Source of the DNA: a virus | Length of the DNA: 30,881 bases | Virus record (IMG/VR): IMGVR_UViG_3300030333_007226 | Location: 1 to 30,881 of that record | Direction: 5' to 3' (one strand) | In this document: piece after piece, positions 5,809-30,881 of the stretch | Numbering within the stretch: the first letter of the stretch is position 1 | Layout of the letters: each line of letters begins with the position of its first letter | Made by a program: the position numbers and the translations under genes | The notes under the pieces: generated by a model | The model's database searches: none | Seen by the model: only the letters and a program-made list of their open reading frames with translations | What the model was told of the DNA's origin: nothing

Positions 5809-7380
5809 CTATTGATCCTGAACAATTGCATAATTTGCGGTTAATAATGTACCTGCGGCGGAGGCAGCATTTTGTAGGGCACAGCGTGTTACTTTAGCAG
5901 GATCCAATATTCCCGATTCAAACAAATCCACAAATTCACCTGTTGAAAAATCCCAACCCTCACTATCCTTTGAGTTTAAAATACGATTAACGGTAAGATC
6001 AGGAGAGCTTCCCGCATTGATTGCCATTTGTTTTAATGGCTCCTGAATAGCACCTTTGATAATTTCGACACCTAACTCTTGCTCTTCGTTTGCAACCTTA
6101 ATATCCAGATCGCTACTTGCACGAACCAAGGCTGTTCCGCCACCCGCCACGATGCCCTCTTGTTGCGCTGATTTAACCGCCTCAAGAGCATCTTCAATGC
6201 GATGCTTTCTTTCGATCATCTCTACTTCAGTAGCGCCGCCAACACGAATGACAGCAACACCAGATGCTAACTTAGTAATGCGGTCCTGAAGTCGTTCGCA
6301 TTCATGAAGATTTTCTGTTTCTTCTAGTTGTGCTTTTAAGGTTTCAATACGATTCTCAATCTCATCAACATCGCCTTTACCGCCCATGATTGTAGTAAGA
6401 TATCGACTAATTTCAATTTTGTTTGCAGAACCTAGGTCAGAAAGTTTTGTATCACGAACTCTCATGCCACTGAGTCTGTTTACAAAGGTAGCGCCAATCG
6501 AAATAGCGAGATCTTGAAGAATACCTCTACGCTCCTCACCATACCGAGGTGCCTTAACTGCTGCCACCTTCATGGTGCCCCGAACCGTATTCATAATCAA
6601 GGCAGCTAATGCTTGCCCCTCAACCTCTTCCGCAAAAATAACGAGAGGTCTTCCCTCGCGTGCTACAACTTCTAATACCGGCAAAATTTGATCTACTGTT
6701 TCAATTTTTTCATCCGTAACGAGCAAAAGAGGATTATCGTATCGAGTTGTGGCAGTGCGCTCATCTGTGACAAACGCAGACGCAGCCCAGCCAGATGCGA
6801 GGCGAAAACCCTCAACAAGATCAAGAGAAGTTTCAACTGAGCGTGCCTCTTGGATTGTAATTGCCCCATCTTTTCCCGCTGCATCAACAGCGGTAGCCAC
6901 AAGATTACCAATCACTTCATCACCATTCGCAGAAATTGTGGCAATACGATTAATGTCTTCTATTGAAGAAATTGGGCGTGACTGTTCTTCAAGATTTGCT
7001 GCCACGACAGCGACAGCCTTGTCAATCCCCCTCTTTAACTCCACAGGAGACACACCTGCTGTAATGTACCTTTGGGCGTGTTGAAGTATAGCACGACAAA
7101 GAATCGTAGTTGTTGTAGTGCCATCGCCAGCATCAGAGTTCGTCTGCTCGGCTGCTTGCTTAATGACTTGAGCGCCAGCGTTCATAAAGTGATCATCAAA
7201 CTCAACAAACTTTGCAACAGTTACTCCATCTTTTGTAATGATGGGTCGCTTGCCCTTTTCTTGTAAAATTACATTACGACCTTTTGGACCTAATGTCGTG
7301 GCAACATTGTTAGTTAAGGTTTCAACACCTTGTAATATTTTTGACTGTAGTTCTTCATTAGAACAATATTTTCTGCTCAT
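5809..7380 (-). CDS. groEL: GroEL chaperonin (phage-encoded)
   Basis: The 523-residue protein is a complete GroEL, the ATP-driven double-ring folding chamber. ATP-site motifs are intact: ATTLGPKGRNV (27-37), DGVTVAK (51-57), DAGDGTTTT (83-91) and the VAGGG segment near the C-terminal equatorial part, preceded by the IEDAL aspartate that corresponds to catalytic D398 of E. coli. It is about 25 residues shorter than the bacterial protein because the flexible Gly-Gly-Met tail is absent; it ends NYAIVQDQ. No groES lies next to it, unlike bacterial operons; a divergent GroES-like gene lies 16 kb away at 22982-23269. AAGG lies before the ATG, two bases after the Dam stop. Phage GroELs are known in several large phages and are thought to fold virion or replication proteins. 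Confidence 0.97.
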   Translation of the reverse strand: MSRKYCSNEELQSKILQGVETLTNNVATTLGPKGRNVILQEKGKRPIITKDGVTVAKFVEFDDHFMNAGAQVIKQAAEQTNSDAGDGTTTTTILCRAILQHAQRYITAGVSPVELKRGIDKAVAVVAANLEEQSRPISSIEDINRIATISANGDEVIGNLVATAVDAAGKDGAITIQEARSVETSLDLVEGFRLASGWAASAFVTDERTATTRYDNPLLLVTDEKIETVDQILPVLEVVAREGRPLVIFAEEVEGQALAALIMNTVRGTMKVAAVKAPRYGEERRGILQDLAISIGATFVNRLSGMRVRDTKLSDLGSANKIEISRYLTTIMGGKGDVDEIENRIETLKAQLEETENLHECERLQDRITKLASGVAVIRVGGATEVEMIERKHRIEDALEAVKSAQQEGIVAGGGTALVRASSDLDIKVANEEQELGVEIIKGAIQEPLKQMAINAGSSPDLTVNRILNSKDSEGWDFSTGEFVDLFESGILDPAKVTRCALQNAASAAGTLLTANYAIVQDQ

Positions 7381-10132: not shown

Positions 10133-10822
10133 TTAAAAGATAATGTCCGCAATACCAAGCTCAACTGCTTCCTCTGCGGTAAAGTAAGCATTAACCTTTC
10201 GGTTAAGAATCTTTTTTAAATGTGCTTTGCTCATGTTGGTTTCCTCAACCATCGCCTCAATATAGCGATCTTGTGTCCATCGGATTTCATCCATTTCGTT
10301 TTCGAGATTATGAATTGATCCGTGATTGCCTCCAAGAACTGCGTGAATCATAACACGACAATTCTTGCCGATTCTGCGTTTACCCTTGGTGCCCGAAGCG
10401 AGCAAAAGAGTGCCTGCTGAAAACACTTTTCCCAACCCAACTGTATGTATATCACATTTGTCTCGAATAACGCGCATCAGATCGTGAAGACCAAACATTT
10501 CTTGTGCGTTTCCACCCAGAGTGGAAATAATAAACTCAAATGGAGAGTAACTGACTAGAATATCTGAATTCTCATCTGTAGGATCTGACAGTTTATAAGT
10601 TGCTCCATTTTCATAAAGCGCGATCATGCCATACATTAATTCGCCTGCTTTCTCCTCATCCAAATCTCCGCATATGCCCATCAAACGGGGTGCTTCGTCT
10701 TTTTTCTGGGCGTAGTAGTGAGACTCGTCATCGGTTTCCGTCTCCTCTGCCACAGCCTCGGGCGCACTTTCTTCTAATTCTTCTTCTTTTTTCTTTTTAG
10801 CCATTTTAGGTACAAAAATCAT
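10133..10822 (-). CDS. ClpP-like serine protease
   Basis: The 229-residue protein has the ClpP fold signature: FIISTLGGNAQEMF (97-110, the oxyanion strand), GKVFSAGTLLLASG (131-144) with the nucleophile Ser135, MIHAVLGG (158-165) with the base His160, and FTAEEAVELGIAD near the C-terminus. The position of the third catalytic residue, Asp in ClpP, is occupied by Asn211. The first 45 residues are a charged, low-complexity extension. ClpP-like proteins act in phages as capsid maturation proteases or as stand-alone proteases; no ClpX/ClpA partner is in the window. The ATG overlaps the upstream stop (ATGA); a second ATG at residue 7 is possible. Confidence 0.88.
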   Translation of the reverse strand: MIFVPKMAKKKKEEELEESAPEAVAEETETDDESHYYAQKKDEAPRLMGICGDLDEEKAGELMYGMIALYENGATYKLSDPTDENSDILVSYSPFEFIISTLGGNAQEMFGLHDLMRVIRDKCDIHTVGLGKVFSAGTLLLASGTKGKRRIGKNCRVMIHAVLGGNHGSIHNLENEMDEIRWTQDRYIEAMVEETNMSKAHLKKILNRKVNAYFTAEEAVELGIADIIF

Positions 10823-13469: not shown

Positions 13470-13804
13470 AAGTCTGGGTGCTCCTTTGCAATAACATCAA
13501 ATATATCCTCTATCTCGCCTTCGTTAATCCCAAACATAGACGAAAGTTGTTTTCCCTGTTCATTAAGTTTTTTTGATTTAGCGTGTCTTTTTGAAGATTT
13601 AACACGACTATTTCTGAGCTTCCATTCATCAAACCACACCATAAATGTTGTATCTTCTTCTAAAAATGCCTTAATTACCCCTCGAAGAAACCCTGCTTGG
13701 GTCAAGCCGTGGTAATGCAGTTGGACTTTTAATTCCACTTTGTGCGATTCAGGTATATAGGTTTGTATTTTTTCACCTTTTTCGTCCCACTGTTTTTTTG
13801 GCAT
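13466..13804 (-). CDS. Small protein, possibly ribbon-helix-helix DNA binder (112 aa)
   Basis: The start is the ATG at 13804, which overlaps the guaB stop by one base (TGATG) and has GGAG six bases before it. Residues 10-60 can be read as a strand (KIQTYIPESHKVEL), a helix and a second helix (QAGFLRGVIKAFLEE), like the ribbon-helix-helix DNA-binding fold. The C-terminal half is basic and helical (SKRHAKSKKLNEQGKQL) and ends acidic. The assignment is tentative. Position between a nucleotide enzyme and a sigma-like protein fits a regulator. Confidence 0.65.
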   Translation of the reverse strand: MPKKQWDEKGEKIQTYIPESHKVELKVQLHYHGLTQAGFLRGVIKAFLEEDTTFMVWFDEWKLRNSRVKSSKRHAKSKKLNEQGKQLSSMFGINEGEIEDIFDVIAKEHPDL

Positions 13805-14838
13805 CAATATCTCCACATAATGTGAGTATTGCTCTCCGACAAGCCTGAAGAGGTTTGGCGAATAAACCGTGCATTTTCTCGGAGTTCCTTCAATGTGCGA
13901 GCACCTGAATATGAAAGCCCGCTGCGGATCCCATTTTCAAGTCCCTCTAAAACTTGAATAACTGAACCTTTATACGGTACGACTGTGGCAACACCCTCAA
14001 GAGAGGATGTTTTTCCTCGCCAATCCATTTGAGCATCTTTACTTGCCATTCCGCGATAAGATTTAAATTTCTCACCACCTTTATGTATAACGTCGCCAGG
14101 TGTTTCACTGGTGCCCGCCAATAGAGAGCCGACCATTGCAAGGTCAGCACCAGCAGCAAGAGCCTTTACAATATCGCCAGAGTTTCTAATACCACCATCA
14201 GCAATAATTTTAAAATTAGGAAACTGTGTCTTTACTCTTGCACAATCAACAACAGATGAAAGAGTCGGCATACCATGTCCAGTTTGAATCCGAGTAGAGC
14301 AAATTGATCCCCCACCGATGCCGACACGGACGCTATTGACACCAATATGCGCCAATGCAAGAGCGCCTGTATATGTAGCGACATTGCCTGCCATAATATG
14401 AGCTTTATGGCGGAATCTGTCAACAATATTGTGAGCAGCAACGTGCATTGAAACGTGATCTCCGTGTGCAACATCTAAACACAAAACTTTTGCCCCAGCA
14501 TCAATTAAGGCGTTGGCTCGTTCAATATAATCACCAGTAATCCCAATAGCACCACCAACTAATCTCAAACCAGAGGCAGAAGCTTGTTCGATAAGTGCAG
14601 ATTGTTTTTCAACTGTATTGTATCGATGAATAATGCCTAATGCACCAAACTCGGACATTCTTTCTGCCATCAGTGATTCACACACAGTGTCCATTGGGGA
14701 GGCAACAATAGGTACACGAAGTTTAATTTTATCCGATAATTTTGATGCCAACGACACTTCGCTGCGAGATTTAATATCACTATATTGTGGAACAAGAAGT
14801 ATGTCGTCAAAGGTGATATAGGTTTCAAGATTCATCAT
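13804..14838 (-). CDS. IMP dehydrogenase / GMP reductase family enzyme without CBS domains
   Basis: The 344-residue protein is a TIM-barrel enzyme of the GuaB/GuaC family, which interconverts IMP with XMP or GMP using NAD(P). Visible are [14 protein letters not shown] near the N-terminus, the catalytic GGGSICSTR loop (Cys180), [22 protein letters not shown], the YRGMAS phosphate-binding strand and the VPYKG end of the flap. The two CBS domains of bacterial IMP dehydrogenase are absent, and the flap lacks the Arg-Tyr dyad of IMP dehydrogenase; its spacing (S-S-L-E-G..., then VPYKG) looks more like GMP reductase. So GMP reductase or a CBS-less IMP dehydrogenase. The ATG at 14838 has GGAG before it and overlaps the upstream gene by 14 bases. 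It may rebalance purine pools for phage DNA. Confidence 0.9.
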
Positions 14839-15112
14839 TGTCTTTCTCCATTGCATCTAAAAAGTTTTGTATAACCTCTTGTGCCGTATCCCAACAAGTG
14901 GGGCAATATAAACGAACTGGATTTTCCTCGTCTTCTTTGCGGACTACAACATTCCAGCTTGTTGCCATCTCTTTGTCTTTTTTATCAAATGCAGTTTCAC
15001 ACGCAGTGCATTTTTCAGGTAACTTGCCAAACATAGCAACCTTGGCTGCTAATTCTTCATTGCTATCCTTCCGTAGCTGTGCCTCTCTAGCACGTCGTTG
15101 TTTTCTATTCAT
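14825..15112 (-). CDS. Zinc-ribbon-like small protein (95 aa)
   Basis: The 95-residue protein opens with MNRKQRRAREAQ, a basic start frequent in small phage proteins, and has two cysteine pairs, CTAC (about 35-38) and CPTC (about 70-73), that could form one zinc ribbon. The C-terminus is acidic. The function is unknown; a nucleic-acid or protein adaptor is plausible. It overlaps the methyltransferase gene before it by four bases and the next gene by 14. Confidence 0.75.
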   Translation of the reverse strand: MNRKQRRAREAQLRKDSNEELAAKVAMFGKLPEKCTACETAFDKKDKEMATSWNVVVRKEDEENPVRLYCPTCWDTAQEVIQNFLDAMEKDNDES

Positions 15113-15848: not shown

Positions 15849-16595
15849 CTATAGCACTGGGCATTTAAATTGAATCTTTTTGCCCCTTGTTCCTGATGCG
15901 TGTGTCCAAGAAAGTCCTGTGCCATAACCGCTGGTGCGGGTTGTAATCTTTTTAATTTGTTCCTCGATTGTATACGTTGAAAAATCCTTCATATCTCTAG
16001 TGGAATGGTCCACTTTGAACATAATGGTGTGATTGGCAATTCTAAGATCCTCGTTATATTCGTCAGGGGATCCTGATAGCGTCCAACGCACAAGTTGTTC
16101 TTTTACAGGTGCAACTCTATTTCTTAAGCTTTCTCGCTCATCATCATCAAAATTTTTACCTGATGCATCAGTCTGAAACTTTCTCATCAAGTCCAACAAT
16201 ACTTTATCTGTAATCCCTATTTCCTTTCTGATCGTGTCAACATCAAATTCTGCAACAGCGATACTGGACATTGATGATTGTTTAACTGAAATTTTGATAA
16301 CATGGTCATTAATCTTAACACAAACATCAGTTTTTGGTGGACCACCAGTGTCTCTTAGTGGAACTTCAACGATCTCAATTGACTTAATAACATCGATGTT
16401 GTATTGAGCACAAGTTTGGTAGAATATTTGCTCTTCAATGCCATGAGGGGCTATACATTTGTTAAAATTGTCAACAATACCTTGATTTGAAAAAATTGAC
16501 TTGACAAATTCTTCATATGCATGCCCTGCACGGGCAGATTTACTACCCATCCCCTCTTCCACGCTGAAGTATTTATTTAAAATAGCATTTAGCAT
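15849..16595 (-). CDS. Restriction-endonuclease-like protein (PD-(D/E)xK type, MspI-like?)
   Basis: The 248-residue protein shows PPKTDVCVKINDHVIKISVKQSS at residues 86-108: an acid (D90) on one strand and a K (K105) at the end of the next, in S-x-K form. Type II restriction enzymes of the MspI group use a similarly altered D...N-x-K site. The C-terminal part, YGTGLSWTHASG and then KKIQFK, resembles my recollection of the end of MspI-type enzymes, but no comparison could be run. It lies directly before a DNA methyltransferase gene with an eight-base gap, and starts at the dUTPase stop. This neighbourhood supports a restriction role; a phage replication nuclease is the alternative. Confidence 0.6.
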   Translation of the reverse strand: MLNAILNKYFSVEEGMGSKSARAGHAYEEFVKSIFSNQGIVDNFNKCIAPHGIEEQIFYQTCAQYNIDVIKSIEIVEVPLRDTGGPPKTDVCVKINDHVIKISVKQSSMSSIAVAEFDVDTIRKEIGITDKVLLDLMRKFQTDASGKNFDDDERESLRNRVAPVKEQLVRWTLSGSPDEYNEDLRIANHTIMFKVDHSTRDMKDFSTYTIEEQIKKITTRTSGYGTGLSWTHASGTRGKKIQFKCPVL

Positions 16596-17363: not shown

Positions 17364-17392
17364 ATTATAACTGAGGTATTTTTAATTGTCAA
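17364..17392 (-). promoter_or_regulatory. Sigma-70-type promoter for the dut unit
   Basis: Minus strand: TTGACA (17392-17387), 17 bases, TATAAT (17369-17364). The TGA in the -35 box is the stop codon of dnaE. A 6-bp inverted repeat (ATTGTC, two bases, GACAAT; 17385-17398) overlaps the -35. Confidence 0.9.
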
Positions 17393-20300
17393 GACAATAA
17401 TCTAAAATTATGTCGTAAAGATCTCGTGCTAAAGCCCCACGTTGGGTGATAGTCGAGTTTCGCCATGTATGGGCGGTTAAGATACAGGATATCAAGCTTC
17501 GAGTTGACACCCCAGCACTTAATATTGGCAGTCGTGCCGGTGTCGTCAATAACCTCAACAACCCAGTATTCTTTATTGTTCTTTGTTTTTCTCGGGACAA
17601 TCTTACGAGGAATAAACCAAGTGACACGAAGGTCAGGGTCGAACTCACCAATGGGCGGAATCATATTTTGATATAGTTTGTCCAAAATATCATTGTTCAT
17701 CACCTCGGACATTGGAAAGACGCCTGTAAGCTCAACAGTGTATTGGATAATGTCTTCTTCCTCGAAGTCACCCTCTGGGCGATATAGCTCGATATTCTCT
17801 TCAAACTTTTTTAGTTTTCGTGGTCGGTCAACAGCAACAGCAGACCAAAAGTGCTTTAGACCGCTAAATCGATCATCTACAAGTCCGTTCATTGCTCCTG
17901 AGCGAACGAGCACATCTAAAGCCTTCTTATTAAGCTTGGAGTATACCATATTCTCATTAAAGATAAAGTCTTCAACCTTTTCAAAGGGTCGGTTGCTAAT
18001 AATCTGTGCAATCGCAGCCTCCCCAAGACCCTTAATAGAAGTCAGCGGCTGGATGAGAGTTTCGCCATCTTCGGAGATCTCCCAAACACGACCAGAGGTG
18101 TTAACATCCAGTTTGCGGATACTAAATCCAAATCCCTTGGCAATGTTGATGGCTTTTTCTTTTCGGCTCTCGGGCTCTTTATCCAAGAACGCAGCCATCC
18201 ATTCTGCGGGATGGTTATGTGCCAACCAAGCGCATTGATATGATAGCATAGAATATGATACAGCGTGCGACTTATTAAAACCATATCCTGAGAAGTATTC
18301 AAACTTATCCCAGATGCCCTCGGCTACATCACGACGAATACCCTTTTCAACACAGCCTGTGACAAACTTGGAGTGAATCTTCATCTTGGCTTCGTGACCT
18401 TTGCCAGTTCCCTTCTTGGTGAGCAACTTACGAAGTTTATTGCCCTCGTCAAGAGTCAGATCTTTTCCCAGTTTATGTGCCAAAATCGCAATCTGCTCTT
18501 GGAAGATAAGGAAGCCGTAGGTCTCCTCAGTCACTTCTTGGATGAGCGGGTGGTCATACTTAATATACTGCGGGTGCTCCTTTGCTTCCACATACTGGTC
18601 ATCAACTTTTGCTGACAGCGGACCTGGGCGAAAGATAGATGTAATAGCTGAGATATCAACAATGCTGGTTGGTTTGGCTCGTTGACAAAATGCTTGTGCT
18701 CCTTTTTCCGTAAACTGGAATATTCCTGCCCACTTACCTTGATGAAAGATGTTTTCGTATACGTCTTGATTTTCAAGATTAATAACATCTGGGTGTAGAT
18801 GTCTATCGTAGTAATCTTTCACGTCATTAAATGTCGGATCCTCGATATCATGCTCCCGCTTCAAAATATGGCGGATTGCGCCATCAATCATCGCAAGCGT
18901 GGAAAGCCCGAGAATATCAAACTTAATAAAACCCATTGGCTCAAGGTGGCGAACGTTCTGCCCCTCTGCCCAAGGTGTTTGACGAACTCCCTTAGAGTTA
19001 ATAAGGGGCATCCATTTATCAAGGTTTTCGCCAACCACAACCCCACCAGCATGACGAGAGCAAGAGCGCACCTGTCCATAGAGCCTGTCGATATGGCTTG
19101 CAATATGCGGGTATTTGCCTAAAAATGCTTGCAGAGTTGGAGAATATTCTTTTGTCTCCTCAAACGTGGGTGCGTAAACACCCGCCTTAATACCGTGCGC
19201 TTTCTTGGCGGCTGGAGTTGCCTCCAAAAGCATCTTGCCTGTGACCTCGTTGACTTCCTTAAATGGAATTCCATAAAATTTAGAAATATCTTTAATTAGA
19301 GAGCGCAACTGAAGAGTGTTCCAGTTGGAGATAGGGACAACAGTGGTGTCGCCCCATTCCTCAATCAACTGCTCTTTTAGTTCCATCGGTGATGCTACAT
19401 CATAGTCAATATCTGGATAGTCAGTAGCATCAGAGCGAAGGAAGCGCGAAAACAGCAGTCCATACTTAATAGGGTCAATCTGAGTGATCCCAAGGGCATA
19501 TGCAGCAAGTGAGCCAGCGGCAGAACCTCGACCTGGACCTGTAAGCATGCAATTGTTTGCCCTGTCGGCAATTGCCTTCATGGTTAAAAAATATTTTGAA
19601 AAACCCCTATCGTCAATAACTCTAAGTTCGTGACGAAGACGTTCGGTATATTCTTTGTTTTTGTGAAGTCCTCGCTCTCGCAAACCCTCCAATGACATGT
19701 TAACAAGCGCCTGTGTCGCTGTATATCCCGCTGGTACGACGAAATCGGGCAACCGAACAGTGTTGTCTGGAAGGAAATCTTCAATTAACTGATGGGCGAT
19801 TTCGTGAGTGTGTTTAATAGATTTGAGCACTAAGTCGTCGTCATAATCTACACCAACAAGTTTAGAATACTTTTTATAGCTCTCCCACATCTGATCGCCG
19901 TTCTTGGGATACAATTCATACCCAATCTCTTCAACATCAATTGGAAGCTCAGTGCTCTCGTAAGATGGAGCGGCTTTGCCAAGCCACCCAAGTCGCTTGT
20001 AAAGTTCACGATCTTTCCATGCTTCTCGGCTTGGATAGTGACTATCTGCGGTTGAAATAAGTCCGATGCCGAACTCTTCATGCATCTTAATAATATATTG
20101 ATTTAACTGGTGTTGTTCGGGCACATTGTTCCATTGAAGTTCGCCATACCAGCGATCACCAAAGATACTAATCATCTTTCGAGTTGTTTCTCGCATTGCA
20201 TCAAGCACAGCCTCTTCGCCGTTGTCTCTATTTTCCCAATAATTACCAGCGTATACACCCCCAAGACATGCAGAGGCGGCGATGACTCCTTCACTGTATT

Positions 20301-20820
20301 TTGATAGAAGTTCATAGTCCATACGAGGGTATCGATAGAAGTTCTCACTTTTATAACTTTCAGAAATTAATTTAAATATATTCTGAAGACCCTCCTGGCT
20401 CTGTGCGAGGAGGATAAGGTGGCGACGGCGACGTAATACATCTTGGACTTTTTTACTGGAGTTTTCGTCCTCAACAGTAGCGCCACTCAAGGTTGAACCA
20501 AGAGTTTTGGCACGCTTTTTGTCCTCCATGGCTTTCTCATACTCTTCACGCCACTCTTTGATGGACGGAATAAAATAGGCTTCCGTACCGAAGATGGGCT
20601 TAAAATTTCTGCCCTCCTCTTTCATCTTTTTGGCGTGCAGCACTTGATGAGAAAGCCCATTTGCGTTTCCGTGATCGGTTAACGCCAATGCATCACATCC
20701 ATTACTATACGCAAAGTCCATATGCTCGTTGGGGTATCCAAGTGCATCAAATAATGAACCAGCTACACTATGTGCGTGTAGTCCCACAAACGGGATCTTA
20801 GACTTTACTCTGTCGCTCAT
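17389..20820 (-). CDS. dnaE: DNA polymerase III alpha subunit (C-family replicative polymerase)
   Basis: The 1143-residue protein is full length for DnaE (E. coli 1160). The N-terminal PHP domain (1-270) keeps the metal ligands of active PHP domains: H15 and H17 (HAH), D25, H50 (TDHGN), E80, H134, C185, D259 and H261. The polymerase core has GPGRGSAAGSL (428-438) and the catalytic PDIDYD (469-474, D470 and D472), then the YFSGYGFNKSHAVSY segment of the fingers. The C-terminal part carries an OB-fold-like region (KKNNKEYWVVEVIDDTG). A typical beta-clamp-binding peptide and the tau-binding tail of E. coli were not evident. Phages more often use A- or B-family polymerases. GGAGG lies before the ATG. 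With helicase, 5' nuclease and RecA in the same window it probably replicates the phage genome. Confidence 0.97.
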   Translation of the reverse strand: MSDRVKSKIPFVGLHAHSVAGSLFDALGYPNEHMDFAYSNGCDALALTDHGNANGLSHQVLHAKKMKEEGRNFKPIFGTEAYFIPSIKEWREEYEKAMEDKKRAKTLGSTLSGATVEDENSSKKVQDVLRRRRHLILLAQSQEGLQNIFKLISESYKSENFYRYPRMDYELLSKYSEGVIAASACLGGVYAGNYWENRDNGEEAVLDAMRETTRKMISIFGDRWYGELQWNNVPEQHQLNQYIIKMHEEFGIGLISTADSHYPSREAWKDRELYKRLGWLGKAAPSYESTELPIDVEEIGYELYPKNGDQMWESYKKYSKLVGVDYDDDLVLKSIKHTHEIAHQLIEDFLPDNTVRLPDFVVPAGYTATQALVNMSLEGLRERGLHKNKEYTERLRHELRVIDDRGFSKYFLTMKAIADRANNCMLTGPGRGSAAGSLAAYALGITQIDPIKYGLLFSRFLRSDATDYPDIDYDVASPMELKEQLIEEWGDTTVVPISNWNTLQLRSLIKDISKFYGIPFKEVNEVTGKMLLEATPAAKKAHGIKAGVYAPTFEETKEYSPTLQAFLGKYPHIASHIDRLYGQVRSCSRHAGGVVVGENLDKWMPLINSKGVRQTPWAEGQNVRHLEPMGFIKFDILGLSTLAMIDGAIRHILKREHDIEDPTFNDVKDYYDRHLHPDVINLENQDVYENIFHQGKWAGIFQFTEKGAQAFCQRAKPTSIVDISAITSIFRPGPLSAKVDDQYVEAKEHPQYIKYDHPLIQEVTEETYGFLIFQEQIAILAHKLGKDLTLDEGNKLRKLLTKKGTGKGHEAKMKIHSKFVTGCVEKGIRRDVAEGIWDKFEYFSGYGFNKSHAVSYSMLSYQCAWLAHNHPAEWMAAFLDKEPESRKEKAINIAKGFGFSIRKLDVNTSGRVWEISEDGETLIQPLTSIKGLGEAAIAQIISNRPFEKVEDFIFNENMVYSKLNKKALDVLVRSGAMNGLVDDRFSGLKHFWSAVAVDRPRKLKKFEENIELYRPEGDFEEEDIIQYTVELTGVFPMSEVMNNDILDKLYQNMIPPIGEFDPDLRVTWFIPRKIVPRKTKNNKEYWVVEVIDDTGTTANIKCWGVNSKLDILYLNRPYMAKLDYHPTWGFSTRSLRHNFRLLS

Positions 20821-22981: not shown

Positions 22982-23269
22982 TTAATCTCCCACAACTTCG
23001 GCTATTACATAGTTGTCTAATATTAAATAATAGTGCTGTCCGGCGTGTTCAATTTTCTCAATCATTGATCGATTAACTAAAATACGAGCCCCTGTTTCCA
23101 AATTCTCAAACCTACAGTCTTTCGCACTAGCATGCACGATTGCTGAACAGTATTTGCCTTCGAGTTTTGTATAATCGTCTGGCAGTAAAATAGTAGACTG
23201 TTGCTTTTTCTTTTCTCTCTCAATATATTCTGGCGTGATTAGAATATGCCTATTAAATGGCTGTAACAT
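22982..23269 (-). CDS. Divergent GroES/gp31-like co-chaperonin
   Basis: I place the start at the ATG at 23269 (MLQPFNRHILITPE), which has AAGGA before it; a longer GTG frame reaches into the reductase stop region. The 95-residue length equals GroES (97). The order matches: an N-terminal QPFNRHILI strand (GroES: RPLHDRVIV), a flexible loop with QQSTILLPDD (about 22-31) in the place of the GroES mobile loop with its hydrophobic GIVL tripeptide, a SAIVHAS strand, a GARILVNR strand (GroES: GDIVIFN) and a final YYLILDNYVIAEV (GroES: VLIMSESDILAIV). Overall identity is low, so this is a fold-level match. It would cap the phage GroEL encoded 16 kb away. Confidence 0.75.
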   Translation of the reverse strand: MLQPFNRHILITPEYIEREKKKQQSTILLPDDYTKLEGKYCSAIVHASAKDCRFENLETGARILVNRSMIEKIEHAGQHYYLILDNYVIAEVVGD

Positions 23270-23312
23270 AGTTTTTCCTTTTTTATCATACATATCGCGA
23301 TGAATTGTCATT

Positions 23313-25712
23313 TTACCCACACTTAGCGTAGCCGCAAGATTTGCACGTTAGACAACCTTCAATATAAATTAACCCATCGGCATTACACTCTGGGCAGGTC
23401 TTGTCACTTGCTCTTGAGCCATCAGTAATATAACTCTTGAGTACTCTTGCAACACATTTGGCAAAAGAGAACATATCACTGTCCCTATCCTTTTGCATTT
23501 GTTCCACGACATATTGAATATTTGCTCCGTGGCGCAGTGATAGCGAGATAAGACGAGTAAATGCTGAGTTATTTGGATTATCAAAAACTTTAACAATATC
23601 TTTGACAACAATGGTGTCGCCATTTTTGCCAACACGAAGGTCATAAACAGAATTCATTGTTTTTCGCGGGTGCTTAACAAGAATGCCTTCAGTGTGCTTT
23701 GCGGGAATCTCGATTAAGTTGGATAATCCACCCATAACTTCGTAAGGTTTGCCGTCAAGCATGCCCACTAAAATAATCCACTTTTCACCCTGAATAGTTG
23801 TGTGATGGATGTTACAGGACAGGTCAGTGGGGCGTTTTACAGCCTCATTTTCAGGGAAAGCTTCTTCGGGTTCATCAGTTTTCGTAACAAGCACCCCTGT
23901 TCGTGAGCCATCGACATAAACTGTAATTCCTTTTAGCCCAAGTTTCCATCCCAATTGATAAAGTCGTGAAACGACCGCTGGATCGGTTCCTTTTGGTAAA
24001 TTAATGGTAGAACTGATTGAGTGGTCGATGTGTTTCTGAATTGCCGCTTGAATACGAACTCGGTTTTCCCAGTCAATCGCGTCTGACTCAGTAAAAAAGT
24101 CAGGAACCTCTTTGGTGTCATGCGCTTCGAGATATTCACGAATGTTGTGGTGGAAAACCTCGTATTCAACCCAGCGGTCGCCTAAATCATCAACAAAATC
24201 TGCCTTGATATCGGCGTCATTGTGAGATAGTTTGCGGCGGCGTGTATAAGAGTTGCGGAAAACTGGCTCGATGCCCGAAGATGTCTGTGACATAATGGAG
24301 ACTGAACCCGTGGGCGCATTTGTTAAAATAGAAATATTTCTTCTACCAAACTCAGCAATAAGATCACGTAACTTCTTGGGGAGCGATTTGATATATGCGT
24401 TGTCTTTTTCTTTTTCCCAGTTAAAGACAGCAAAAGCACCGCGTTCTTGGGCGAGGTTTACAGATTCGGTATAAGCAGAAACTTTCAGTGTTTTATAAAT
24501 TTTATCAATGACCTCGATACCCTCTTCGGAGTCATATGCAAGCGAAAGACAAGCGAGGGCGTCTGCCAAGCCATGAGTCCCAAGTCCAGTGCGACGACCA
24601 TTAACGCAAGCAGTCTTCAAATTCTCCCAGAGTTCCTTTTCATCATCTGTATCACATGCCTTAATGATACTGTCGAGTTTTTCAATTTCAAGTTCTACAA
24701 GATCATCAGAAAGACGCATAGCATATGCTGCAACCTTAGAAAAATGCTTGTAATCAAAAGACGCACTTTCTGTAAACGGGTTTTTAACAAAGTTTTTAAG
24801 ATTGACAGAAATAAGGCGACAAGAGTCGTAAGCAGAGAGCGGAATCTCTCCACATGGATTAGTGCAAATGGTTTTAAATCCATCATCAGCGTAGGATTCG
24901 GCAGGAAGATATTTTTCAATGTTACCCCACATCAGCAATCCTGGCTCTGCCGTCTTGGTAGCCGATTCTACGATTTGCTGCCAGAGAGCGGCGGCGTCAA
25001 CTTCTCTCGTGTATTTTGGGTTTTCTGCGTCAACAGGAAACCGAAGAGTAAATGTTCCATTGCTTTCTACTGCCTCCATAAAATCATCACTTATTTTCAC
25101 AGACACATTTGCGCCCGTGACTTTCGTGAGATCATGTTTCATTGTGACAAATTTTTCGATATCAGGATGACGCACATCCATTGAGATCATCAGTGCCCCT
25201 CGGCGTCCGTTTTGCCCAATCATACGACAAACGTATGAATATAAATCAGCAAAAGACCAAGCACCTGTGGTGGTGCCTGCGGAGTTATTAACGGGAGTGC
25301 CTTCGGGGCGTAATTGGCTAATATCAAGTCCTACGCCACAACGTCTTTTAAATAGATTAGCGAGAGATTTACTTGAATCTATAATTGAAGAAATATTATC
25401 CTCTGGTGAGGCAACAACAACGCAGTTAGAAAGGGATACGTTGACATGATTATTTCCAATACCCATCATGGGCGAACCCTGGGGCACAATATAATTAAAA
25501 TTCTTAATTAAGTCATAAATCTGCTCTTGTGACAGCGCATTCTCACCACCAAATTTGCGTTCCATGCGAGCGAACTCAGATGCAATGCGATTATGCATAT
25601 CATCTGGTGTTTCTTCTAAAATTTTACCGCTTTTATCTTTTAAAGCGTATTTTGTTAACCACACGTTGGCGGCTAATTCATCCCCCTCAAAATACTCTTC
25701 TAATTTTCCCAA
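23313..25712 (-). CDS. nrdJ: Adenosylcobalamin-dependent (class II) ribonucleotide reductase
   Basis: The 799-residue enzyme reduces ribonucleotides to deoxyribonucleotides without oxygen, using coenzyme B12. Motifs: SLSNCVVV (the first active-site Cys), RRCGVGLDIS, NPCGEIPLSAYDSC (radical-site loop with the second Cys region) and NAPTGSVSIM. The C-terminal end has CPECNADG and CLTCKSCGYAKC, a zinc-ribbon-like tail with redox cysteines typical of this class. The start is TTG at 25712 with GGGAG six bases before it, just after the helicase stop. B12-type reductases are common in marine phages. With dUTPase it supplies building blocks for phage DNA; no thioredoxin gene is in the window. Confidence 0.96.
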   Translation of the reverse strand: MGKLEEYFEGDELAANVWLTKYALKDKSGKILEETPDDMHNRIASEFARMERKFGGENALSQEQIYDLIKNFNYIVPQGSPMMGIGNNHVNVSLSNCVVVASPEDNISSIIDSSKSLANLFKRRCGVGLDISQLRPEGTPVNNSAGTTTGAWSFADLYSYVCRMIGQNGRRGALMISMDVRHPDIEKFVTMKHDLTKVTGANVSVKISDDFMEAVESNGTFTLRFPVDAENPKYTREVDAAALWQQIVESATKTAEPGLLMWGNIEKYLPAESYADDGFKTICTNPCGEIPLSAYDSCRLISVNLKNFVKNPFTESASFDYKHFSKVAAYAMRLSDDLVELEIEKLDSIIKACDTDDEKELWENLKTACVNGRRTGLGTHGLADALACLSLAYDSEEGIEVIDKIYKTLKVSAYTESVNLAQERGAFAVFNWEKEKDNAYIKSLPKKLRDLIAEFGRRNISILTNAPTGSVSIMSQTSSGIEPVFRNSYTRRRKLSHNDADIKADFVDDLGDRWVEYEVFHHNIREYLEAHDTKEVPDFFTESDAIDWENRVRIQAAIQKHIDHSISSTINLPKGTDPAVVSRLYQLGWKLGLKGITVYVDGSRTGVLVTKTDEPEEAFPENEAVKRPTDLSCNIHHTTIQGEKWIILVGMLDGKPYEVMGGLSNLIEIPAKHTEGILVKHPRKTMNSVYDLRVGKNGDTIVVKDIVKVFDNPNNSAFTRLISLSLRHGANIQYVVEQMQKDRDSDMFSFAKCVARVLKSYITDGSRASDKTCPECNADGLIYIEGCLTCKSCGYAKCG

Positions 25713-25714
25713 CT

Positions 25715-27079
25715 TTAACTCCCGTCTTTAAATCTTTTATATTTTTCTTTTAGTTTTTCAGATTGCTGCTTGGCAGCGTTAACCTGAATTTCACCAATCG
25801 TTTCACCTGTTGATGGCAATATATCAATTTTTACCCTGCTTAGATCCATTTTGGCTGGATATACAAGCCCATCAGGACCAAATCGATTTTTAGCAACAAA
25901 CATTCGACCTGTGTTGTTGTTCTTGTCATCAATTGTTCTGGATACCGAACAAATAAAATCAGCAACAAAACATTTGCTATATGCCTCTGAAATTGCCTCT
26001 AAGGTTACAACCTCGGCATTCAAACCTGAGCGGTTTGTTTGAGAAGCGGTCCAGACTGGACATTTTGTTTCTTGAGCGATTGCTCGTAATTCTTCATAAA
26101 TAGATTCCAAGTCGTGCCTCTTCTCTCTCGTAACAGTAACAGGTTTTAATAAGTCTCCATAGTCTACCAGAATCATGTCAACTTTTATATCTCTTTGTTT
26201 AAGTTTTTCGAGATGGTTTTTGATTGTTTGGGTCGAAGCAGACTTTGTGGGATATTCCTTAATAATTAGACGACCAGTTACTTCCTGCACCTTTTCATAA
26301 ATCATTTCTTTAAAAGAGTGCATTTCAGACAAAGAAACTCCAGTAATACAGCTATCATATCTTATGCCGATACTAGTATCTTGGAGTTCCAATGTGTAGT
26401 GTACAACCGTCTTGCCTTGTAAAAGCGCCTGGGCTCCAAGGTGAACAAGAACCATTGACTTTCCCGCTCCAGTTGGTGCAATGACGACTCCAAGCTCTCC
26501 ATTTCCAATCCCGCCTCGGCACAGTTTATCAACTTCATCCCAACCCGTGGTGATCGGATCTCTTGCTTTTATTTCAAATCTTTTCTCAAAGTCTGCAACA
26601 TAATCATAACCAAAGTCTGAATTATTGCCAAGTTTTAAGGCGTCATTAATAACTTTTGAGATCTCATCATAAGAAGAGTTTTTCAATAACCCAACAGATT
26701 TGATCATTGCCGATTTCAGGACTTGTTTTCGACAAAAGTCGAGAGAGGTGTTTTTTATAAACTCTTCATCTTTAACTTCAGCGTTATAAATGCGAGAAAA
26801 GTAGTCTCGTGTCTGTTTCTTAATCGCATCCGTTTCATCATCTAACTCAGTTCGAAGAATTGTTAATAAAATCTTCGTGGATGGATGAACACTATATTTT
26901 TCTTTATAAGCAAATATCCGATCTACAAAAACTTGTAAATACTTAAGTTCAAAGTATTCAGTTTCTAACACTTCTTGGATTTGATCCGAAAAAGCACGAT
27001 CTTGTAAGATAAGAGCGGCAAGCCCTTCTTGGAACGACTTGCCATATTTGCTAAAGCTGACTTGCTCTTGCGACTTCAA
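25715..27079 (-). CDS. DnaB/gp41-type replicative helicase
   Basis: The 454-residue protein has an N-terminal helical domain (about 15-150) and a RecA-like motor: VVIAPTGAGKS (Walker A, 198-208), YTLELQDTSIGIRYDS (H1a-like), MILVDYGDLLKP (Walker B, about 304-315), TASQTNRSGL (sensor) and VAKNRFGPDGL with the arginine finger region. It unwinds DNA 5' to 3' ahead of the polymerase. It starts with TTG (27079) and AGGTG; no ATG is near. A near-perfect promoter stands directly upstream. No separate primase is seen in the window. Length and layout fit T4 gp41 and other phage DnaB relatives. Confidence 0.94.
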   Translation of the reverse strand: MKSQEQVSFSKYGKSFQEGLAALILQDRAFSDQIQEVLETEYFELKYLQVFVDRIFAYKEKYSVHPSTKILLTILRTELDDETDAIKKQTRDYFSRIYNAEVKDEEFIKNTSLDFCRKQVLKSAMIKSVGLLKNSSYDEISKVINDALKLGNNSDFGYDYVADFEKRFEIKARDPITTGWDEVDKLCRGGIGNGELGVVIAPTGAGKSMVLVHLGAQALLQGKTVVHYTLELQDTSIGIRYDSCITGVSLSEMHSFKEMIYEKVQEVTGRLIIKEYPTKSASTQTIKNHLEKLKQRDIKVDMILVDYGDLLKPVTVTREKRHDLESIYEELRAIAQETKCPVWTASQTNRSGLNAEVVTLEAISEAYSKCFVADFICSVSRTIDDKNNNTGRMFVAKNRFGPDGLVYPAKMDLSRVKIDILPSTGETIGEIQVNAAKQQSEKLKEKYKRFKDGS

Positions 27080-27998: not shown

Positions 27999-28014
27999 AT
28001 AAATAGTTTTATTT
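27999..28014 (-). promoter_or_regulatory. T4-late-type promoter before the nucleotidyltransferase gene
   Basis: Minus strand AAATAAAACTATTTAT; shares CTATTTAT with the other three late-type sites. It overlaps the end of the exonuclease gene and ends four bases before the ATG, so transcripts from it would be almost leaderless. Confidence 0.5.
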
Positions 28015-28971
28015 TTTCCAATCTGCGACAATCTTGTGCATAGAGGCATACAAATCTACAAAATTGACAACACCAAAGCCATCTTCTATCATCATTGCTT
28101 TGGCATTGGTTTTAGCAAACTCTGGCTCGAAATTATCAAGGGCATAATTTATTTTCTGTCTGCCCTGAATACTGATTGATGGCGTGTAAAGTTGCATCAG
28201 GCGATAGTTTTGTGTCACTATCTCTTTGCCTTCCAAAACACTCGTATACGCCTTGACTTTGCCTTGATTTTCTGCACAGTGTTCCATCAGAGTGTCGATA
28301 TCGTGAAAAACATCTTCTGCTAAAAAGGGAAAGCGCTTAGAGATTGTCGGAAGCCCCACCCCACCAACACCAGGCAAATTATCTGACTTATCACCAGCAA
28401 TAGCGCGAGCGAGGGCAAAATTCTTTGGATGAATGCCAAACTGCTCTACTAAGTTTTTTTGATTTATAATCTGTTTTTGAATTGGACGGAAAACAATAGT
28501 TTCACCATCACACAACTGGAAAAAGTCCTTATCCGAAGATACGATAACTTTTTGCCACCCTGAATAGTTGGAGTGCTGAACTACTACACTAATGATATCG
28601 TCGGCTTCAACAGCAGGAAGCATCAATTGAATAATCGGCAGTTCGTTAAGATATTCTACAAGGCGCGTCTGCTGCCAAATCTTGTTGGCAACTTCTTCAT
28701 TTTCTGAAAGATTGCGGATATCGCGGTTGAGGCGAATTGGTTTTCTACCCTCTTTATATCCCTTGTTTTTTGTCTTGCGTCTTTGAGAGCCACCTTCCCC
28801 GTCCCAACAAATTACAACCTGATCAGGTTTTGTTTCTCGAATGAGTTTTTGAAGCGATTGGAGAAAACCCTTAAGTCCTCCGATGGGTTGCCCATTGGTA
28901 GATAGACTTGGATTAACAATATAGTTTCTGAACAAAAGATTCAGAGCATCAACAACTAATAGTCTTTTCAT
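28009..28971 (-). CDS. 5'-3' exonuclease / flap endonuclease
   Basis: The 320-residue protein belongs to the 5' nuclease family (T4 RNase H, T5 exonuclease, Pol I N-terminal domain), which removes RNA primers and flaps. Metal-binding acids are visible in VVDALNLLFRNY (6-17), CWDGEGGSQRRK (55-66), PAVEADDII, VIVSSDKDFFQL and the AGDKSDNLPGVGGVG helix-hairpin-helix. No polymerase domain follows, so it would process lagging-strand ends made by the phage DnaE. It is the first gene after a promoter that overlaps the previous terminator. Confidence 0.94.
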   Translation of the reverse strand: MKRLLVVDALNLLFRNYIVNPSLSTNGQPIGGLKGFLQSLQKLIRETKPDQVVICWDGEGGSQRRKTKNKGYKEGRKPIRLNRDIRNLSENEEVANKIWQQTRLVEYLNELPIIQLMLPAVEADDIISVVVQHSNYSGWQKVIVSSDKDFFQLCDGETIVFRPIQKQIINQKNLVEQFGIHPKNFALARAIAGDKSDNLPGVGGVGLPTISKRFPFLAEDVFHDIDTLMEHCAENQGKVKAYTSVLEGKEIVTQNYRLMQLYTPSISIQGRQKINYALDNFEPEFAKTNAKAMMIEDGFGVVNFVDLYASMHKIVADWKK

Positions 28972-29445: not shown

Positions 29446-30567
29446 TTATTCATCTTCCTCATAAAAATCTGAAGCGTTTCCTTCTCGATTGTCAAACTTA
29501 TAAATAACCTCTTCGTCCATAATTTCATACACTCGCTTACGAAAGTCATCTTCCTGCAAGCGCTCAGTCCATTTGGTAGCTTGAAACTTTGGACCCAAGG
29601 CTTCTCCAGAGGAATCAAGAAGCGTGTACCAAGCACCAGTGCGAACTAGATTAGGAGAGCCTGCGATGGCATCAAACAAACTTTCGTCATCCTGAATGCC
29701 GATTTCATCTCCCCATAGAATACGGAAATTACACTGTCGCCCTTGGGTTCCAAAGCGAGATTTCTCCAACTTTACCTTAACCTCCGATCCGATACGAAAG
29801 CCCTTGTCATCAGTGACAAAGGATGCCTTGGCTTTTCGCCCTGTCAACCAGATGCGAAGTGAGTATGCATAAATCATAGCCTTTCCGCCTGGTGTCACAT
29901 AAGGAGTTGTCATAGCCTCAGAGGGTGAGCGGGTAATGTTTGATTTTAACTGGTTTAGAACCAAGAATGTTGATTGAGAATTTGCAATTGGAACTGTCAA
30001 CTTAGACATACCCTTTGCAAGAATACGAGCCTTTACAGCCATGGAGGACTGAGGGTTGAAATCGCCCTCGATGTCCGAAATGGCAGGGGTGAGTGCAAGT
30101 GAGTCCCAAATAAACAACATGCGATTGTCATTGTTCGCGAGAAGATCTTCAATAGTCTCCAACACAAACTCAACAGAGGCTGCCTGGACATAAAGAAGGC
30201 TGCTTAGGTCACATCCTGCTTTCTCAAGAAAGCCAGGATCGATTGCCGACTCTGAATCAAAATAAATAACGTCAATTCCCATCTTTTGGGCATTTGCAGC
30301 AACCTGTGCTGCCATGTAAGATTTACCAGTCGCTTCCAGACCTGCAATTTCCACAATTTTACCAACAGGGATGCCAGAAAGTTTACCACGGCATATAATT
30401 GAGTCCAGCCAGCGTGAGCCAGTTGGAATCCAGTCTTTAACCTGTGTTGGGTTTTCGCTGGTTAAGTCATGAGCAACATCCAAACCTGCGCGTTTATTAA
30501 TAAGGGCACGCATATCGGACAAACTAAGTTTACCAGCCTTTGTGCCTTTTGTTTTAGCCATTCGCAT
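29446..30567 (-). CDS. RecA/UvsX-type recombinase
   Basis: The 373-residue protein is a RecA-family strand-exchange ATPase. It has an N-terminal helical region, the Walker A EIAGLEATGKS (73-83), YFDSESAID (catalytic Glu on the second strand), MLFIWDSLALTP (Walker B) and LVLNQLKSNI (the sensor strand), followed by the VTPGGKAMIYAYSLRIWL loop-strand. Size and the acidic C-terminus (last 14 residues) fit phage UvsX/RecA proteins. It would load on single-stranded DNA for recombination-driven replication and repair. The first ATG (30567) has GGAG five bases before it; a second ATG lies two codons on. Confidence 0.95.
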   Translation of the reverse strand: MRMAKTKGTKAGKLSLSDMRALINKRAGLDVAHDLTSENPTQVKDWIPTGSRWLDSIICRGKLSGIPVGKIVEIAGLEATGKSYMAAQVAANAQKMGIDVIYFDSESAIDPGFLEKAGCDLSSLLYVQAASVEFVLETIEDLLANNDNRMLFIWDSLALTPAISDIEGDFNPQSSMAVKARILAKGMSKLTVPIANSQSTFLVLNQLKSNITRSPSEAMTTPYVTPGGKAMIYAYSLRIWLTGRKAKASFVTDDKGFRIGSEVKVKLEKSRFGTQGRQCNFRILWGDEIGIQDDESLFDAIAGSPNLVRTGAWYTLLDSSGEALGPKFQATKWTERLQEDDFRKRVYEIMDEEVIYKFDNREGNASDFYEEDE

Positions 30568-30629: not shown

Positions 30630-30881
30630 TTACGCTCCCATAAGTTCGTTAAAGGCAGCATCAACAGAGGAAACTGTGTCAGTAGAAGGAGGAGGGGTTG
30701 TAGTCTTAGTCTCCTCGCTGGTGCCTTCTTCGCCAAGCAGGTAAGCATCCAAAAGTGCGCCTACTTCTGCTGGCGTTTTACGCTCAAAGAGCGTATCAAA
30801 CTCGGGAATGCTTTCAAGCAATTCCGCACAGCGATCATCGCCACCGACAGCCTCATCACAGAGGGGTGAAGAGCGACGACG
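30630..30881 (-). CDS. C-terminal end of an unknown protein, possibly ssDNA-binding (gp32-like)
   Basis: An open frame enters from the right edge and stops at TAA 30632-30630, giving 83 residues. It shows LLESIPEFDTLFERKTPAEV, then a Glu/Thr/Ser/Pro-rich linker and the end SSVDAAFNELMGA. A flexible linker ending in a short acidic-hydrophobic tail is typical of single-stranded DNA-binding proteins, and T4-like phages often place gp32 near replication and recombination genes. The fragment has no fold signature, so the identification rests on the tail and the neighbouring recombinase. Confidence 0.5.
   Translation of the reverse strand, partial: RRRSSPLCDEAVGGDDRCAELLESIPEFDTLFERKTPAEVGALLDAYLLGEEGTSEETKTTTPPPSTDTVSSVDAAFNELMGA

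Follow-up and report, generated by a model that had tools for sequence, protein, structure and literature searches.

A complete PHP metal site in the DnaE-type polymerase of uncultivated marine phages and its likely part in proofreading

A group of uncultivated phages encodes a DnaE-type DNA polymerase whose PHP domain, in the explanation that we find best, is probably a 3′-5′ exonuclease acting in cis and the only recognisable replicative proofreader of the group. The window analysed here, 30,881 bp in length, is the whole of the IMG/VR virus record IMGVR_UViG_3300030333_007226 and a fragment of a larger genome. Its polymerase would be the replicative enzyme of marine myovirus-like phages, one complete relative of which measures ~195 kb. 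Nine conserved ligands of the PHP domain would hold a trinuclear metal cluster, and a mispaired primer end would move to the PHP site for trimming, a route demonstrated in Mycobacterium DnaE1. The PHP domain is singled out as the proofreader because no DnaQ-type exonuclease is detectable and the short family-A polymerase found in relatives has no exonuclease domain.

The polymerase and its PHP metal site

The ORF encodes a full DnaE-type C-family polymerase (Table 1), with the domains in the order PHP, palm/thumb, fingers, (HhH)2 and C-terminal OB fold. Pfam matches cover PHP (PF02811, residues 14–229), DNA_pol3_alpha (PF07733, 372–638), the finger domain (PF17657, 664–824) and HHH_6 (PF14579, 898–984), and the protein also matches phrog_405 (E 1e-228) and TIGR00594 (592 bits, over the cut-off). 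An AlphaFold (AF2) model, metal-free, built from 36 sequences and with a mean pLDDT of 83.6, matches Taq, M. tuberculosis (Mtb) and E. coli Pol III alpha across its full length. The best structural match is Taq Pol III alpha (4iqj, Z 41.5, 967 residues), to which model residues 9–1141 align over Taq residues 5–1120 with the C-terminal OB fold included. The PHP part alone gives Z 26 against an E. coli PHP chimera and Z 11–17 against metal-dependent PHP phosphoesterases. The likeness to the Taq enzyme (2hpi, 3e0d, 4iqj), whose PHP domain is metal-binding, comes with 30% identity over aligned residues, and the Taq chain runs past residue 1120 whereas the phage protein stops.

By structure alignment, the polymerase ends opposite residue 1120 of the 1220 in Taq and residue 1077 of the 1160 in E. 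coli, at the start of the C-terminal domains of those enzymes, and the phage protein lacks the small tau-binding domain that DnaE1 typically carries at its C terminus. We therefore file the enzyme as DnaE type and not as DnaE1; about 9% of bacterial DnaE1 likewise depart from the typical architecture. In PolC-type polymerases a DnaQ exonuclease interrupts the PHP domain and the OB fold is N-terminal. This type was ruled out, as neither the protein nor the window has a PF00929 match and the OB fold is C-terminal.

The initial annotation listed nine residues matching the metal ligands of active PHP domains (H15, H17, D25, H50, E80, H134, C185, D259 and H261), and all are present as numbered. In pairwise alignment the nine fall on the PHP ligand positions of Mtb DnaE1 (5lew/7pu7), where three zinc ions are held by nine conserved residues and the mutations D23N and D226N abolish exonuclease activity (PMC5636811). 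The ligand string reads HHDHEHCDH and thus agrees with HHDHEH[C/H]DH, the signature by which bacterial PHP domains are called active (PMC12926913). In the AF2 model the ligands are predicted to lie at or just after the ends of strands 13–16, 44–47, 74–83, 133–139, 179–183 and 253–256, a placement as expected of a PHP barrel and one that gives no sign of misalignment. A conserved basic run (R131–R133) stands just before H134, where a long loop of variable sequence ends.

The phage polymerase shares with Mtb DnaE1 the DnaE fold and the nine trinuclear-zinc ligands in the same order, and the proofreading that the Mtb enzyme carries out via its PHP domain may, by analogy, have a counterpart in the phage. 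The two differ in that identity is ~28% over structurally aligned residues, that the phage enzyme has a longer E80–H134 loop and neither the tau-binding domain nor a recognisable canonical clamp motif, and that no DnaQ was found in complete relatives of the phage.

Table 1. Features of the polymerase and of neighbouring replication genes in the window
Feature	Position	Strand	Basis
DnaE-type C-family DNA polymerase, 1143 aa	17389–20820	−	single ORF, ATG start
PHP domain, residues 10–270, nine metal ligands	20011–20793	−	PF02811 E 2e-27; own-genome search E 1.2e-30; alignment to 5lew
Ligands H15 and H17 (HxH)	20770–20778	−	alignment
Ligand D25 (= Mtb D23)	20746–20748	−	alignment
Ligand H50 (TDHGN)	20671–20673	−	alignment
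Ligand E80 (GTEAY)	20581–20583	−	alignment
Ligand H134	20419–20421	−	alignment
Ligand C185	20266–20268	−	alignment
Ligands D259 and H261 (DxH; D259 = Mtb D226)	20038–20046	−	alignment
Catalytic aspartates D470, D472, D635 (with D474)	18916–19413	−	invariant in 80/80 relatives
C-terminal OB fold, residues 1049–1143	17392–17676	−	VIA-align matches to RPA/Teb1 OB folds, Z ~8
DnaB-like replicative helicase, same gene cluster	25715–27079	−	PF03796, phrog_19
5′-3′ exonuclease (FEN/RNase H-like), not a 3′-5′ proofreader	28009–28971	−	PF02739, phrog_107
RecA/UvsX-like recombinase	29446–30567	−	PF00154, phrog_97
gp32-like SSB, C-terminal end cut	30630–30881	−	by eye against L100:1201-1971 (phrog_1192/PF08804)

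We compared 80 related loci whose polymerases are 69–96% identical to that of the window. The ligands are unchanged in every relative covering them (76–80 of the 80 loci) and in 137 of 137 complete relatives. Given that 90 of the 261 columns of the PHP domain are invariant among the 80 loci, nine columns taken at random would all be invariant with a probability of 5e-5. When only the His, Asp, Glu and Cys columns of residues 10–270 are considered, only 12 of 50 stay unchanged across 156 relatives, and these 12 include all nine ligands, an outcome that a random draw would give with a probability of 220/2.5e9, or ~9e-8. The conservation of the ligands is beyond chance, and from the aligned sequences the metal site appears to be complete and under strong constraint.

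Other exonucleases, replisome parts and the second polymerase

The statement in the initial annotation that no DnaQ-type exonuclease is visible in the window was borne out by the profile search, in which no DnaQ/RNase_T (PF00929) match occurred at E ≤ 10. Beyond the window, the search covered 26 related records (16 and 10 more), including G002 (195,459 bp, circular), which is taken as complete because of its 127-bp direct terminal repeat, G001 (190,629 bp) and one record of 184,913 bp; no PF00929 match over the cut-off was found in G002 or the 25 others. A weak match in G017 (E 0.013, below the cut-off) spans a stop codon, lies in no ORF of at least 80 aa and was rejected. The PolA-type 3′-5′ exonuclease (PF01612) was absent from 16 related records and no other nuclease was seen among ten further mid-size G002 proteins scanned, while positive controls among well-known genomes match in each exonuclease search. 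The absence of alternatives is established at profile level, where a phage exonuclease that has diverged far could go undetected. As all ligands are kept and a complete relative has neither a detectable dnaQ nor another detectable 3′-5′ exonuclease, the PHP domain probably edits phage DNA copying. The earlier proposal that the polymerase may proofread with its own PHP domain is the best-supported reading on these grounds, although a host DnaQ could still contribute.

Searches for a clamp and clamp loader, likewise suggested at the outset, recovered nothing recognisable in 16 related records with the profiles of the beta clamp (PF02767) and clamp-loader delta′ (PF13177). The T4 clamp (PF02916) was not found in these records either, a less informative negative because the control for this profile matches weakly and in one of 14 genomes. 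A simple clamp-binding consensus after (HhH)2 is absent in 154 of the 156 relatives. Most of the phage C-family polymerases to which the pattern was applied lack it too, and the motif may be present in a diverged form.

Half of the related records (8 of 16) contain a short family-A polymerase of ~400 aa (DNA_pol_A, PF00476), without an exonuclease domain. In G001 and G002 its gene stands beside ssb and recA/uvsX, just past the position that corresponds to the end of the window; if placed in the same way, the window copy would lie beyond the SSB gene, outside the record. Judged by sequence, this second polymerase of the large relatives fits the divPolA1 enzymes described in 2024, in which the exonuclease is inactivated and the thumb reportedly truncated (PMC11348598). 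According to the same paper, which does not deal with PHP or DnaQ, the phages with divPolA1 (Flavobacterium phage immuto together with uncultured relatives) have genomes of 155–190 kb, and in addition to divPolA1 they carry a regular polymerase, of family A, B or C, close to GroEL/GroES genes. By gene content the large relatives fit this description, with GroEL/GroES near dnaE in both G002 and G001. Likewise, GroEL (5809–7380) and a GroES-like protein recognised by eye (22982–23320), both on the minus strand, flank the polymerase region of the window.

The short family-A enzyme might itself be the replicase, with DnaE as an accessory or repair polymerase. Its gene adjoins ssb and recA/uvsX in G002 and G001, DnaE shows no canonical clamp-binding motif and lacks the tau-binding domain, and PMC11348598 places divPolA1 in a conserved replication context and argues that what the "regular" polymerase does is less clear. 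We nevertheless regard this as unlikely. DnaE is full length and strongly conserved, it retains all catalytic aspartates and its gene sits with those for the helicase, ribonucleotide reductase and dUTPase, whereas a polymerase without an exonuclease domain and with a reportedly truncated thumb would be an odd sole replicase for a 195-kb genome. We infer that DnaE, rather than divPolA1, would carry out bulk replication.

Several other genes of the region were recorded. The ribonucleotide reductase next to the helicase (23313–25712, minus strand; PF02867 large subunit, phrog_84) belongs to a different family from the B12-dependent enzyme found at the same place in G002 (L099:12292-14259; phrog_367), which represents a gene swap in place. 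An IMP dehydrogenase/GMP reductase family protein of 350 aa (13804–14856, minus strand; PF00478, E 6e-105) has a 55% identical counterpart in G002. An MspI-like restriction endonuclease (PF09208, E 5e-25; 15849–16595) lies directly beside an N6/N4 DNA methylase (PF01555; 15109–15864), both on the minus strand, and the two possibly form a phage-carried restriction-modification pair. Hsp20 is encoded at 2263–2700 and a ClpP-like protease at 10133–10822. A scan of species genomes for a host returned only two metagenome-assembled contigs with unrelated labels, probably phage contamination. A metagenome-assembled genome labelled candidate division WOR-3 (L233; CP070664.1, 341-9664) has a 91% identical copy of the polymerase right where its "chromosome" begins, and this probably reflects a phage contig that was misjoined or misbinned.

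PHP and DnaQ among phage C-family polymerases

The initial remark that few phages have a C-family replicase is only partly right: 1,337 of 50,697 phage records carry one, and a published count gives 947 PolC against 6,560 PolA in 18,382 genomes (PMC11348598). The best match among these records is ~31% identical to the window polymerase. Known phage C-family polymerases (phrog_405; Streptomyces phage Hydra, Mycobacterium Bxz1-like ErnieJ and Rossellomorea phiT1) resemble it in architecture, whereas identity reaches at most ~31% and the window group forms a separate, well-supported branch. The suggestion that the enzyme is unusual finds no support in its PHP site: among 29 sampled GenBank phage C-family polymerases, 21 have the same intact HHDHEHCDH set and eight a degenerate one, so that for a phage enzyme of the C family an intact PHP seems to be usual.

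Whole-genome searches of the sampled phages found a phage DnaQ-type exonuclease in all eight with a degenerate PHP domain and in 2 of the 21 with an intact one, both Bacillus phages (Fisher p 1e-5); Mammaliicoccus phi116 was left out of this table because its record starts inside the polymerase gene. By eye, the ten DnaQ matches show DEDDh-type motifs, one of them being cut short. In Nemo, Mansfield and Pluto the DnaQ-type gene lies immediately before that of the polymerase. The Pbunavirus/Wifcevirus polymerases (Pseudomonas phage Nemo, Escherichia phage Mansfield) are C-family phage enzymes like that of the window but present the opposite arrangement: their PHP site is destroyed, and a gene for a DEDDh exonuclease lies immediately upstream. 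In a tree of the polymerase core the phages with a degenerate PHP fall into about three lineages, and a test corrected for phylogeny retains 2–3 independent pairs, nearly all in the expected direction; the link is suggestive but not significant after this correction because there are only about three independent losses. The pattern parallels that in most DnaE1-only bacteria, which are reported to have a single candidate proofreader, either PHP or DnaQ (PMC12926913).

Mycobacterium phage Weiss13 (L109:1501-2436) and Microbacterium phage DannyDe (L112:1516-2553) encode the PHP domain, with none of its nine ligands lost, in a gene of its own ahead of a gene for the polymerase body, and the Weiss13 gene is annotated "sliding clamp", which looks like a misannotation. 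A Nemo gene annotated "hypothetical protein" (L115:1317-1871), just upstream of the PB1-type phage polymerase, encodes a DEDDh DnaQ-type exonuclease.

A competent PHP site could also stand beside a main proofreader supplied by the host, namely DnaQ (epsilon), recruited as it is to the host alpha subunit. Host exonucleases are available in the cell, and the Lys-Pro of E. coli alpha that contacts epsilon (K63; PMC3919608) resembles K74-P75 of the phage, of which K74 is invariant. The KPIxG motif, however, is a common feature of PHP domains and also occurs in those of actinophages that have no DnaQ; the lineages with a decayed PHP carry a DnaQ of their own, and an idle site would leave the conservation of all nine ligands unexplained. 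We consider dependence on host DnaQ quite unlikely.

Probable proofreading in cis and its meaning for these phages

Proofreading in cis by the PHP domain would account for that conservation. Very unlikely, in our view, is a PHP site active in another role, as a pyrophosphatase (an activity reported for the E. coli DnaE PHP domain; PMC4822814), in PolX-like end-cleaning as an AP-endonuclease/3′-phosphatase (several activities are reported for the PolX PHP domain; PMC6616362) or as a structural metal site (D23N and D226N also destabilise Mtb DnaE1; PMC5636811), since exonuclease activity has been measured where the nine ligands are intact, in Mtb DnaE1, and since the E. coli PHP domain is reported to be structural though several metal ligands are lost (PMC3666897), so that stability alone need not preserve all nine.

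A wider picture, which we put forward as rather unlikely, is a two-polymerase replisome that has no clamp, clamp loader or DnaQ of phage origin. Its only editing site would be the DnaE PHP domain, which would also correct ends made by divPolA1, and phage C-family replicases in general would keep either an intact PHP domain or a phage-encoded DnaQ.

Proofreading by PHP has been established for few bacteria, and the literature searched yielded no phage test of it. Phages with an intact PHP domain and no recognisable exonuclease, together with phages with a decayed PHP domain and a DnaQ, provide a clean set of enzymes with which one can ask whether PHP or DnaQ alone suffices and why phages switch. 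Of interest in the window group is the combination of an exonuclease-less second polymerase with no detectable clamp, clamp loader or DnaQ; a further point of interest is that PHP and phage DnaQ may be alternatives to each other. For the divPolA1 phages, in which the second polymerase has reportedly lost its exonuclease, the DnaE PHP domain offers a candidate proofreader.
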